Positions 12,579 to 16,009 of a stretch of DNA of 39,015 bases are shown here, one piece after another. The stretch lies in NCBI GenBank assembly GCA_943358175.1, contig CALRGV010000009.1:1-39015 (forward strand), in the 5' to 3' direction. Position 1 is the stretch's first letter. Each line of letters starts with the position of its first letter. Position numbers and translations under genes: made by a program. Source of the DNA: Candidatus Peribacteria bacterium. GTDB lineage: Bacteria; Patescibacteriota; Gracilibacteria; UBA1369; LOWO2-01-FULL-3. Below the pieces are notes generated by a model, which had not been told where the DNA came from, did no database searches, and saw only the letters and a list, made by a program, of their open reading frames with translations.

Positions 12579-12700
12579 AAAGTGTTTAATTGCTATTGGA
12601 TACGAGGCGAAACTTAAATTTTGACCGCAGTGTACGATTTGTGTACACGAGGATCAAAATTTAAGTTTCAACGAAGTAGACGATAGCAATTAAACACTTT
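12579..12700. repeat. quasi-palindromic hairpin element, copy 1
   Basis: 122 bp folding as nested stems. The outer stem is 18 bp perfect (12579-12596 with 12683-12700). The inner stem is 16 bp perfect (12609-12624 with 12654-12669). The apical stem is TGTAC (12631-12635) with GTACA (12643-12647). Internal loops carry GATACGAGGC on the left and AACGAAGTAGA on the right, identical to copy 2 at 15607-15730. The stem sequences of the two copies differ but remain complementary. The right end touches the aminotransferase stop codon. Function unknown; see findings. Confidence 0.85.
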
Positions 12701-14238
12701 TAGTTCGTCATATATTCCTTGATCAGCTTCGCTGCCTTTTGCAAATAAGTGAAAGTCAGATTCGGAAGGGAAGCCCGAGCATAAGCGCGATAATCTTTCT
12801 TTTCACGATCAGTTTCCGAGAAAAATAAGTTTGAAGGAATTAGCACCACCCCCTTCTTTGCCAAGCCGTAGAATAACTCTTCCGGCTCTACTCCTTCCTT
12901 TGTATTTCCTGGAATCTGCATCAAGTCAAAACAGCTATAGTACAAATTTTTATTATACTGCATGCCCAAAATCTCATAAAAACTTTCCATATTAACTCTA
13001 ATCCTTTTCAAATATTCATCTCTATCCTCGTCGCCAAAAACCATATGGGATACGCCCAAATATTGAGACGGGCCGGTGACGAAAGCCACGTGTTGGAATT
13101 CTCCTCTGATTCCGCCAGGAGCTTTCGCGAAAATCAAAAGCTGCATCAGATCTTTTGCCGTATCCAGATGACCTTTTAGAATATTTTCGGAAATATATTT
13201 TTGCCCCTCTTTTGTAATTACGAATTCTCCGAATCTCAGCCCGGTACTTCTCTCTATTTTACTCCTACCACCAATCAAAATTGTTCTTTCCGCCGCGAAA
13301 TGCATGATTGTTTTTTTGCGGGCAAAAAAGAAATCACTATATACCTCGTCAGAAACAATCAGCGCATTTCTTTCTTTCGCAAATTTGCCAATTTTCTCAA
13401 GAAATTCTTCACTGTTACAGAATCCGGTTGGATTATTTGGATCAATCAGACAAATCATTTTGATATTTTTTGGAGCACCGGCTAACATTTCGTCCAAATT
13501 ACCCACCACCTCGCCGGTCTCCGGATTTACCGGAATTGAAAAAATCTTGAGGCCTCTGTTTTCCATGATTGTATTATATGGAGCGTACACGGGTGAAGAA
13601 ATCAATACCGTATCTCCAGGCTGTAAATAACCACATTGTGGCTCACACAAAAGTTTAAAAATTGTTCCAATACCATGAGAAACGCCCTGCATAAAAATCA
13701 AATCCTTGTAATCAATTCCCAGATTAAATCTTTCATTGTAATGATTGGCCACTACCAGTCTCACGAGAGTCTCACCCTGCGGATCCAAATATGATCCACC
13801 GGATAAAGCGGAATATTTCAACATCTCAAAAATGACCTGTTTTTTATCCCAATTTAAACCCTGTTCTTTCGCGTATTTTTCAATTCTGGTCAGAAAGAAA
13901 TAAAAATCTTTTAGAACTCTATCGGATTTTTTTTCATTATATGTTTGATTGGCATGAGCCTGAATTTTTTCCCACAATACTTCAAAATTATCTCTATTGT
14001 CAGAAACAAAATGATGATTTGGATTATTCAAAAGCATATCCACTTCCAACAAAAACGCATAAAATTCTCTTCCATGAACAGACGGAGAGAAACCATATCC
14101 GGGATCACCGCGCGATAAATCCACTACATTGGATACGCCCACACTTTCATCAGCAACCTCTCTCAGTAAACGAAAAATCCTAAACGGATTATCTTTCACC
14201 AGATCATAGCCCCATTTGTTGTCTGTCAATTTTATCAT
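12700..14238 (-). CDS. class I/II aminotransferase, aspartate aminotransferase/4-decarboxylase-like
   Basis: 512 residues, about 100 longer than ordinary aspartate aminotransferases but near the size of aspartate 4-decarboxylases. The PLP lysine is Lys327 in RSKIERSTGLRFGEF, matching SKxxxxTGxRxG. Other PLP contacts are Asn269 in DPNNPTG and Asp297 in IVSDEVY. The substrate arginine is probably in RAYARASLPNL near the C-terminus. The N-terminal ~100 residues include LSRGDPGYGFSPS, as in the decarboxylase group. It could make alanine or oxaloacetate/glutamate from aspartate; the reaction cannot be decided without alignment. No aspartate-alanine antiporter lies nearby. Confidence 0.8.
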   Translation of the reverse strand: MIKLTDNKWGYDLVKDNPFRIFRLLREVADESVGVSNVVDLSRGDPGYGFSPSVHGREFYAFLLEVDMLLNNPNHHFVSDNRDNFEVLWEKIQAHANQTYNEKKSDRVLKDFYFFLTRIEKYAKEQGLNWDKKQVIFEMLKYSALSGGSYLDPQGETLVRLVVANHYNERFNLGIDYKDLIFMQGVSHGIGTIFKLLCEPQCGYLQPGDTVLISSPVYAPYNTIMENRGLKIFSIPVNPETGEVVGNLDEMLAGAPKNIKMICLIDPNNPTGFCNSEEFLEKIGKFAKERNALIVSDEVYSDFFFARKKTIMHFAAERTILIGGRSKIERSTGLRFGEFVITKEGQKYISENILKGHLDTAKDLMQLLIFAKAPGGIRGEFQHVAFVTGPSQYLGVSHMVFGDEDRDEYLKRIRVNMESFYEILGMQYNKNLYYSCFDLMQIPGNTKEGVEPEELFYGLAKKGVVLIPSNLFFSETDREKKDYRAYARASLPNLTFTYLQKAAKLIKEYMTN

Positions 14239-14298
14239 GTTTTATAGTTAGTTCAGTCCGCACTCTAAAATTTTCAAGGGGAAAAGGCAAGCTTCTTG

Positions 14299-14327
14299 TT
14301 TTCAAATTTTTTCATTAGTAATATAGT
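14299..14327 (+). promoter_or_regulatory. promoter of the PEBP gene, predicted leaderless
   Basis: TATAGT (14322-14327) with six bases to the ATG at 14334. The candidate -35 TTTTCA (14299-14304) is poor. Confidence 0.45.
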
Positions 14328-14333
14328 ACGGAT

Positions 14334-14774
14334 ATGAAAATCACCAGCCCCGCCTTTGAAAATAATGGGAATGTTCCCGCAAAATATACTTGTGATGGAG
14401 AAAACATAAATCCACCACTGGTTTTTAGTGAAATTCCTGCGGCAGCGCAGAGTCTCGTGCTAATTGTCGATGATCCTGACTCACCAAGCGGTACTTGGGT
14501 GCACTGGACAATCTGGAATATTGATCCAAAAGTTACCGGAATTGACGAAAATTCCATCCCTACCGGCACCACCCAGGGAACCACCAACTTCGGCAAAGAA
14601 GGCTACGGCGGCCCATGTCCCGCATCTGGCATTCACCACTACCATTTTAAATTGTATGCCCTGGATATCAAGCTTTATTTACCCGGCGTCAGAGCTGACA
14701 GTCTGGAAAAGGCAATGGTGGGACACAATTTGGATCAGGCTGAGTTGATTGGTTTATACACTAGGGAGAAATAA
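14334..14774 (+). CDS. YbhB/YbcL family Raf kinase inhibitor-like (PEBP) protein
   Basis: 146 residues, standard for bacterial phosphatidylethanolamine-binding-like proteins. The ligand-pocket signatures are VLIVDDPDSPSGTWVHW (residues 43-59), the GYGGPCPASGIHHYHF block near 87-102, and a C-terminal MVGHNLDQAELIGLY. No signal peptide is present, so it should be cytoplasmic. The physiological role of bacterial members is unclear. It is a single gene with its own -10 box, and mutM starts convergently 2 bp after its stop. Confidence 0.94.
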   Translation: MKITSPAFENNGNVPAKYTCDGENINPPLVFSEIPAAAQSLVLIVDDPDSPSGTWVHWTIWNIDPKVTGIDENSIPTGTTQGTTNFGKEGYGGPCPASGIHHYHFKLYALDIKLYLPGVRADSLEKAMVGHNLDQAELIGLYTREK

Positions 14775-14775
14775 A

Positions 14776-15591
14776 CTACTCCTGACACTCCTCACAATAC
14801 ACTGTCCCTCTTCCTGCGACCACGGTTCTTTTCAAAATGCTCTCACACTTTAAGCATTTTGCACCCCCACGCCCATATACATATAAAAGTTCCTGGTTTT
14901 TACCCTTATAGCCATAAGCATCTTGAAAATCGGAAATGCTGGTTCCACGATTTTTTACACCTTGTTTTAGAGCTTTTATGACTCCTTCAAAAAGACGCCC
15001 CAATTTTTTTTCATTCAATTCCTCCATTCTCACGCCAGGTCTAATTCCCGCATAAAAACATCCTTCATCGGCATAAATATTGCCAATTCCGGCGACTTTT
15101 GATTGGTCCAGAAGCCATTTTTTCACAGAGCCTTTTCGGCCCTTCATCATTTCAATAAAACCACTCACATTCAGATCTCCATTCAACGGCTCCACTCCCA
15201 GTCTTGAAATTCCAGTCACTGCCTCGTACTCGGAAGCTTTACAAATCCAAACTTTCCCGAATTTTCTCACATCGCAAAATCTCAAAGACACTCCATTGAA
15301 ATCAATTCTCGTTCTTTCAAATCTTAAAGGCTCATCTCCAGGGTCGCAAGAAATTATTCTGCCACTCATCCTCAAATGAATAGTCATCACGTAATTATTT
15401 TCAAAAAAAATATTGATGAATTTGCCTCGACGCTCCACCGTTACCACCTTCTTGTCTCTAATAGAAGCCACATTATCCAAGGCACCAATGATAGAATTTT
15501 CATGAGTGCCAACAAGATCAACAAAAAACCGCCCCTTCAAAACAGGCCTCAAATCCGAAACAATGGTTTCGACTTCTGGTAATTCCGGCAT
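14776..15591 (-). CDS. mutM: formamidopyrimidine-DNA glycosylase (Fpg/MutM)
   Basis: 271 residues. Bifunctional glycosylase/AP lyase removing 8-oxoguanine and formamidopyrimidines. The N-terminus MPELPEVETI supplies the nucleophilic Pro2 and Glu3. The helix-two-turn-helix carries QSKVAGIGNIYADEGCF. The C-terminal zinc finger has its four cysteines as CLKC and CEEC at the very end. Together with xth (27023) it provides much of an oxidative base-excision pathway. A TATAAA box (15608-15603) lies just upstream of its start and touches the end of hairpin copy 2. Confidence 0.97.
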   Translation of the reverse strand: MPELPEVETIVSDLRPVLKGRFFVDLVGTHENSIIGALDNVASIRDKKVVTVERRGKFINIFFENNYVMTIHLRMSGRIISCDPGDEPLRFERTRIDFNGVSLRFCDVRKFGKVWICKASEYEAVTGISRLGVEPLNGDLNVSGFIEMMKGRKGSVKKWLLDQSKVAGIGNIYADEGCFYAGIRPGVRMEELNEKKLGRLFEGVIKALKQGVKNRGTSISDFQDAYGYKGKNQELLYVYGRGGAKCLKCESILKRTVVAGRGTVYCEECQE

Positions 15592-15606
15592 AAAATATTG
15601 AATTTA

Positions 15607-15730
15607 TAGAGTTGAATAAAGATGTTAGATACGAGGCGAAGACAGAAAGTTGACCGGAGTGTACGAAGTAAGTACATGAGGATCAACTTTCTGTCTTCAA
15701 CGAAGTAGATAATATCTTTATTCAACTCTA
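15607..15730. repeat. quasi-palindromic hairpin element, copy 2
   Basis: 124 bp. The outer stem is 21 bp (15607-15627 with 15710-15730) with one G-T pair. The inner stem is 16 bp perfect (15638-15653 with 15683-15698). The apical stem is TGTAC/GTACA. Loop sequences match copy 1 at 12579-12700. The right arm contains the ferredoxin stop codon (15728-15730), and the left arm ends in the mutM promoter region. Confidence 0.85.
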
Positions 15731-16009
15731 CATACCTTCAAACTCTACATCTCCATTCACTTTGCACTGACAGCAAAGACGATGCTCTCCATCTTTCATG
15801 CACATCATTTCTAAAGTTTGTTCTTCAGTCTCCTGCACTGGAGCCAAATTTTCTTTACCATTATGAACCTGAATAATGCAAGTTCCGCAAACGCCGTCTT
15901 CACAACCGAAAGCAATCGGCCAGCCATTCTCGCGCACAGCATCTTTCAGCAAACTTCCCTGAGCGGTCTCAATCGTTTCCTTACTATTTTTAAATGTAAC
16001 TTTTGGCAC
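15728..16009 (-). CDS. plant-type 2Fe-2S ferredoxin
   Basis: 93 residues starting at GTG. The cluster ligands are Cys36, Cys41 and Cys44 in FGCEDGVCGTC, plus a fourth in RLCCQC near 80. This is the CX4CX2C...C pattern of plant-type/adrenodoxin-like electron carriers. The redox partner is not obvious; IspG (18675), which needs reduced ferredoxin or flavodoxin, is a candidate consumer, and this link is inference. Two further cysteines (79 and 82) flank the last ligand. It is divergent from gshF. Its stop codon lies within a hairpin element. Confidence 0.93.
   Translation of the reverse strand: MPKVTFKNSKETIETAQGSLLKDAVRENGWPIAFGCEDGVCGTCIIQVHNGKENLAPVQETEEQTLEMMCMKDGEHRLCCQCKVNGDVEFEGM

Follow-up and report, generated by a model that had tools for sequence, protein, structure and literature searches.

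The imperfect hairpins of integron attC sites lie just after a stop codon, have stems that are free in sequence as long as they stay complementary, and fold on the antisense strand. The hairpins of repetitive extragenic palindromes (REP) and bacterial interspersed mosaic elements (BIME), and those of insertion sequences (IS) of the IS200/IS605 type, are recognised as single-stranded hairpins, whereas IS5-group elements duplicate a 4-bp target, YTAR. Unnamed palindromic ‘multicopy nucleotide sequences’ have also been described between the genes of Geobacter (PMC2700814, PMC2996986). Here, two hairpins, E1 and E2, are analysed in a 39,015-nucleotide stretch of DNA (the window; positions 1–39,015 of contig CALRGV010000009.1, assembly GCA_943358175.1) from a Candidatus Peribacteria bacterium, a member of the candidate phyla radiation (CPR). 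They are probably copies of a non-autonomous mobile element, resembling miniature inverted-repeat transposable elements (MITEs), that occurs across Bacteria and has as its core, of approximately 120 nt, a strand-specific hairpin.

Structure of the two hairpins

Both hairpins are present where the initial annotation of the window had placed them. The bounds of E1 are retained (12579–12700, + strand, 122 nt), whereas E2, first given as 15607–15730, is better bounded at 15608–15729 (+ strand, 122 nt). The two align without gaps, and their stems are the top four inverted repeats of the window. RNA folding gave −64.9 kcal/mol for E1 and −67.8 kcal/mol for E2 (z of −11.7 and −12.4), with none of 200 shuffles folding as well.

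The + strand of E1 is the folded (model) strand. Its 20-nt outer-stem 5′ arm (12579–12598) pairs with the 3′ arm at 12681–12700 and is followed by an internal loop consisting of GATACGAGGC on the 5′ side (12599–12608) and AACGAAGTAGA on the 3′ side (12670–12680), in which UAC pairs with GUA and the facing GA dinucleotides may form tandem sheared pairs. The 16-nt 5′ arm of the inner stem (12609–12624) pairs with 12654–12669, and the two arms enclose the apical part, CCGCA-GTGTAC-loop-GTACAC-GAGGA (12625–12653). E2 is built in the same way on the + strand: outer-stem arms at 15608–15627 and 15710–15729, GATACGAGGC at 15628–15637 and AACGAAGTAGA at 15699–15709, inner-stem arms at 15638–15653 and 15683–15698, and an apical part, CCGGA-GTGTAC-loop-GTACAT-GAGGA, at 15654–15682. 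The loop sequences reported as common to the pair, GATACGAGGC, AACGAAGTAGA and CCG-AGTGTACGA...GTACA-GAGGA, occur in both hairpins exactly as first written.

The stems required more revision. The outer stems, initially put at 18 and 21 bp, measure 20 pairs in each hairpin, one of them G–U. Nor are they wholly unrelated, as had been claimed: the outer-stem arms of most copies in this genome follow a loose consensus, AGAGTGTTTAATTGATGCCA, and the copies fall into subfamilies. E1 and E2 differ at 7 positions of the 16-bp inner stem and agree at the other 9, instead of the nine differences counted before, although the accompanying observation, that every changed pair is still complementary, is correct.

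Covariation and the folded strand

Selection acts on a strand-specific hairpin: its stems vary by compensation and its internal loops are fixed in sequence. The initial proposal of selection on structure together with loop sequence is strongly supported. Among 12 near copies, 98.4% of the stem cells of the alignment are paired, compared with 77.8% in shuffles, and two-sided changes are seen in 32 of 47 pairs (17.1 in shuffles), with a score of 0.619 (0.187 when shuffled). Across phyla, two-sided changes extend to 45 of the 47 pairs, with 1,055 two-sided cells against 304 in shuffles; fitting to the model tilts this cross-phylum alignment towards structure, but controls in which the pairing partner was slid left 33–43% of cells paired, compared with 89% for the true pairing.

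A G·T pair on one strand is an A·C mismatch on the opposite strand, so G·T pairs are informative on which strand folds. Counted from sequence anchors without the model, outer-stem G·T pairs on the strand read in the initial annotation and on the other strand number 42:10 for the CPR order and 62:6 for the remaining phyla; with a one-base shift allowed, the ratios are 40:12 and 76:14. By the one-base-shift count, 25 elements favour the model strand and 7 the other in the CPR, and 36 against 3 do so in other phyla. G·G is not favoured over C·C (3 versus 19 in other phyla). Since G·T is mostly confined to one strand, the selected fold is that of the strand carrying GATACGAGGC...AACGAAGTAGA. The loops of this strand would also allow tandem G·A pairs, which are impossible on its complement. 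Tolerance of wobbles alone is what an RNA would show, but the selected fold may instead be that of single-stranded DNA (ssDNA).

Covariation of this kind might instead be produced by mutation, if template switching corrected the palindrome by copying one arm onto the other. The near-perfect stems, and two-sided changes that far exceed one-sided ones, are in line with such copying. Arm correction is strand-blind, yet the wobbles lie mostly on one strand (the 36 against 3 elements above), and the loops are conserved across phyla, where arm copying cannot act; this origin is very improbable.

Copies and mobility

A search with a two-loop pattern found a third copy after dnaA, and then 11 copies in this genome and one in a same-genus relative. 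Two covariance models, R1 and R2, were then used. R1 identified 37 distinct places in this 1.38-Mb genome (G000), its 58 raw matches counting both strands of many copies, and had matches in 19 of 60 related genomes, where the distribution is patchy, with none in two same-genus genomes. The initial annotation had suggested a covariance-model search and regarded a lack of further copies, or copies with unpaired stems, as fatal to its proposal; what emerged were additional copies in the genome and its relatives, with compensatory changes, at 37 places in this genome and with 98.4% of stem cells paired in the 12 copies aligned.

The element disperses within genomes. All 16 loci that were compared are element-free in the same-genus genome G003, and none of the three same-genus relatives (G001, G002 and G003) has a copy at the dnaA site. 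At 5 of the 16 loci (C1:32564, C1:75666 at greA, C1:11131, C6:18604 and C8:17740), G003 has a terminator-like hairpin with a T-run in the element’s place. At two loci the last codons of the gene are replaced by the element, which brings a new in-frame stop codon. The dnaA copy and that at C1:6143 hinted that the native 3′ flank might have been copied in inverted form into the outer stem, but at other sites the arm carries the element’s own consensus.

In some genomes outside the CPR, the unit is slightly larger and has the outer-stem arm as its terminal inverted repeat. In Peptococcaceae BRH_c4a (Clostridia), approximately 20 near-identical copies form the left end of a unit of approximately 180 bp, which has CTAG on both sides and inverted ends GAGGCTGTTGAAAA / GAGAGTGTTGCAAAA. 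Several other genomes outside the CPR have an inverted copy of the outer arm 6–60 nt beyond the hairpin, and outside those ends are direct 4-bp YTAR repeats (TTAG, TTAA and CTAA) or repeats of 6–8 bp.

Several copies depart from the standard form. At G000:C11:7438–7505 (locus L154), approximately 220 nt from the end of a 16S rRNA gene, the inner stem and apex are wholly deleted, leaving an internal-deletion derivative that consists of a 20-bp outer stem with GATACGAGGC-CTGAA-AACGAAGTAGA. Adjacent or tandem copies, one complete and the other partial or of another subfamily, are found at G000:C1:32564–32785, G000:C6:50937–51123 and L290:5482–5726. Diverged long hairpins with related loops (TTGCGCATTGCTT..., GACCTCTGCGTAGG...) occur at L168 and L208, which are the greA and dnaA ends of G015, at L182 (G014), and at G000:C6:73979, L243:6286 and L290:5606; several of these score weakly with R1 or are missed by it, and they suggest a wider superfamily. 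A recurring protein family adjoins copies in several genomes (13 loci, including L020, L031, L040 and L048). In one relative, dnaA is interrupted by in-frame TGA codons (G030:C23:1860–3273), for which a pseudogene, an assembly error or recoding may account.

Distribution across Bacteria

The hairpin family is pan-bacterial and not specific to the CPR. A scan of one genome per species with a loose pattern had, among the matches listed, Desulfobacterota/‘Deltaproteobacteria’, Nitrospirae, Rokubacteria, Pseudomonas, Geobacteraceae, Selenomonadales, Clostridia, Chlorobiota, Bacteroidota, Chlamydiae, Omnitrophota and Patescibacteria. Most of these loci were confirmed by R1 at E ≤ 0.01, and the sense-strand consensus outside the CPR is approximately AGGCTGCTGAAAAAGTCCATCTGCTGCGTTG-inner stem-CGCCTTGCATCTGGAGCTTTTTGAGCAGCCT. 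With R2, 18 carriers gave 1 to 150 matches per genome, with 147 in the isolate Geothermobacter hydrogeniphilus HR-1; a single copy may be counted twice in these figures, once for each strand. Searches of plasmids, phages and viral contigs gave no element match. In unrelated phyla, an element lies approximately 90–230 nt upstream of a purD-like gene (L227; L244, Pseudomonas; L235, Cryptobacteroides), which may be chance.

Placement at gene ends

In E1 and E2 the outer-stem 3′ arm reaches the end of a gene on the opposite strand. That of E1 directly abuts the TAA stop codon (12700–12702, − strand) of a class I/II aminotransferase gene (12700–14238, − strand), which is the host gene upstream in the sense direction; the folded strand is antisense to both genes flanking E1. 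That of E2 overlaps the stop codon (15728–15730, − strand) of the gene upstream of it, encoding a 2Fe-2S (Fer2) protein (15728–16009, − strand). The placement is common in this genome: in the ‘sense’ view, 28 of the 37 copies start or end between −15 and +8 nt from a stop codon, and the surrounding genes are arranged ++ in 18 cases, +− in 10 and −− in 7, with no copy between divergent genes. The selected strand is usually antisense to the adjoining gene. The near-identical BRH_c4a copies have no consistent tie to stop codons.

A host-beneficial, cis-acting structured RNA at gene 3′ ends, such as a strand-specific terminator or an RNA-stability element, which spreads only incidentally, would account for part of this pattern. 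In this genome, copies are sited at 3′ ends and none separates divergent genes, ordinary intrinsic terminators have been supplanted at the 5 of 16 compared loci (greA included), and the tolerance of G·T alone, with G·G not favoured over C·C, is RNA-like. The folded strand, however, is antisense to the upstream gene, and both neighbours oppose the fold in 18 of the 37 copies; just 12 of 162 copies have a T-tract after the hairpin, even with either strand counted, same-genus relatives manage without the element, and the BRH_c4a copies are placed without consistent regard to stop codons. Weighed together, these points leave a host-serving RNA an unlikely primary explanation.

Orientation and GC skew

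Measured over 20 kb, the folded strand is on the C-rich side in 36 of the 37 copies. Genes show no such preference: on contig C1, 51 are on the + strand and 49 on the − strand, yet all 11 of its elements are on the − strand. The two-sided probability of 36 in 37 would be approximately 1e-9 if copies were independent, but the copies are related and the value is indicative only. Among relatives with a local skew of at least 0.15, orientation agrees in 32 cases and disagrees in 2. At the 8-kb scale, no such bias was observed in other phyla (45 versus 33), and the BRH_c4a copies have none.

Independently of gene direction, GC skew is one-signed along the single 998-kb contig of a relative (G008:C1) and along the large contigs of other relatives (G003:C6, G019:C3 and G021:C10; L342–L361 and L364–L381), with one near-neutral exception. 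Such skew is known for the Microgenomates order UBA1400 (PMC7143001). Because the skew keeps one sign over the whole G008 contig, leading and lagging strands cannot be assigned from oriC. In this CPR lineage, with its unusual chromosome-wide GC skew, the orientation bias also serves to mark strand asymmetry.

An orientation that follows replication would be expected of an element that moves as ssDNA at the replication fork, through a hairpin-reading recombinase or another transposition enzyme. The 36 folded strands on the C-rich side amid mixed genes, the uniform strand on C1 and the agreement among skewed relatives all point this way. Set against them are the lack of a bias in other phyla and in the BRH_c4a burst, copy-rich genomes without a Y1 transposase, copies without attC boxes or the REP tetranucleotide, and a skew whose single sign throughout the sampled chromosome of the relative hides which strand is lagging. 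Movement as ssDNA is one of two sub-cases within the MITE-like explanation, with which its confidence overlaps, and is a serious candidate held at somewhat below even confidence.

A probable mobile element with a conserved core

In the MITE-like explanation, a transposase supplied in trans would move the element by recognising its outer-stem ends. The core would act as a folded single strand, either as ssDNA exposed in replication-coupled movement or as RNA made from that strand. Insertions at gene ends would persist because they spare the upstream gene and because the hairpin could serve in place of a terminator or 3′ end; the TAA or TAG within YTAR would account for landings on stop codons that leave the gene undamaged.

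Several findings weigh against this explanation. No transposase gene recurs near copies at CPR loci or in other phyla, and no neighbouring gene recurs there as a partner. The transposase families considered as partners were Y1 (PF01797) and PF05598. Y1 had no matches in the copy-rich genomes checked (G000, G001, G007, G009, G010, G020 and G027), and PF05598 transposases of carrier genomes were rejected, as the loci fetched had neither the hairpin nor matching ends. Among the paired ends in BRH_c4a no full-length element with the same ends was found, these ends lying approximately 187 bp apart as short units; a few right-type ends there are unpaired. No second terminal repeat was seen in this genome, and direct repeats around the copies are no more frequent than expected (3.90 compared with 3.85 in shuffles here, and 4.22 compared with 3.91 in relatives). 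Some orthologous sites carry a copy in more than one genus. Two further features are unexplained by ordinary MITE transposition: the 36-of-37 orientation bias, which the BRH_c4a copies do not share, and a core conserved across phyla despite differing terminal repeats.

As the ends vary between genomes but the inner fold and its loops stay the same across phyla, and on one strand only, the folded strand must matter. It could act as ssDNA during movement, which would fit the orientation bias of this genome. Alternatively, it could act as RNA, after insertion or as a transcript, which would fit the wobble signature and the replacement of terminators. More tentatively, the family could be an undescribed pan-bacterial class of mobile hairpins in which a strand-specific core is kept, the ends change and partner machinery reads the fold, a proposal that at present falls a little short of an even chance.

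A hairpin with 45 of 47 pairs covarying, present in many phyla and reaching dozens of copies in a genome, has apparently been missed by annotation. A core needed for movement would imply transposition by an unknown mechanism in which a folded strand is read; if the core serves after insertion instead, the family is a ready-made 3′-end element that displaced ordinary terminators. The cultured carrier G. hydrogeniphilus HR-1 makes both readings testable.

Comparison with known systems

The initial statement that no named family matches agrees with database and literature searches. At the Rfam gathering threshold only two tRNAs were found in the window, and at E ≤ 1 the five element loci searched gave only a sub-threshold match to MIR475. 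Open-literature searches, by exact string and by description, likewise yielded no paper that names the hairpin family, the Geobacter multicopy alignments being outside their reach.

The family shares with integron attC its position after stop codons, a free but complementary stem and a functional fold on the antisense strand. It differs in that its copies are scattered among housekeeping genes such as dnaA and greA, with no cassette arrays, and R′ (RYYYAAC) and R″ (GTTRRRY) boxes are present at the stem base in just 2 of 162 copies, by which an attC identity was rejected. With REP/BIME and IS200/IS605 (Y1) systems it has in common dispersed extragenic palindromes and strand asymmetry; its hairpin is three to five times longer. 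Membership of that group was likewise rejected, with GTAG or GGAG at the hairpin foot in 8 of 162 copies (model strand) and no Y1 in copy-rich relatives.

Like intrinsic terminators, the hairpins stand right after stop codons, and they supplant terminators at several orthologous sites, but they are much longer and their loop sequences are fixed. A T-tract lies within 12 nt in just 7 of 162 copies when the sense strand is read and in 5 of 162 when the model strand is, and this identity was rejected. A short terminator-like hairpin in G056 (L064, 1501–1544; AAAAAAAGTCCTCATGTACCACAAGTACACTGCGGACTTTTTTT) bears the element’s apical motif.

The Geobacter multicopy sequences are also palindromic and intergenic, and the hairpin family has copies in a Geobacteraceae metagenome-assembled genome. 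As judged from their published descriptions, they differ in that the main text of the reports carries no analysis of structure, strand or mobility. They are possibly an earlier, partial sighting of the same family.

The closest likeness is to MITEs, which are similarly short, gene-free and dispersed in many copies at sites empty in close relatives; in several non-CPR genomes the resemblance extends to the terminal inverted repeats and 4-bp or 6–8-bp target repeats of IS5-like MITEs. The differences are a hairpin core with fixed loops that is kept across phyla and across at least two types of terminal and target repeat, terminal repeats that vary, copies in this genome at which no target duplication was seen, and no partner transposase found among Y1 and PF05598. 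The ‘new element class’ of the initial annotation is accordingly better described as a new family, unusually structured, that takes its place among MITE-like elements.

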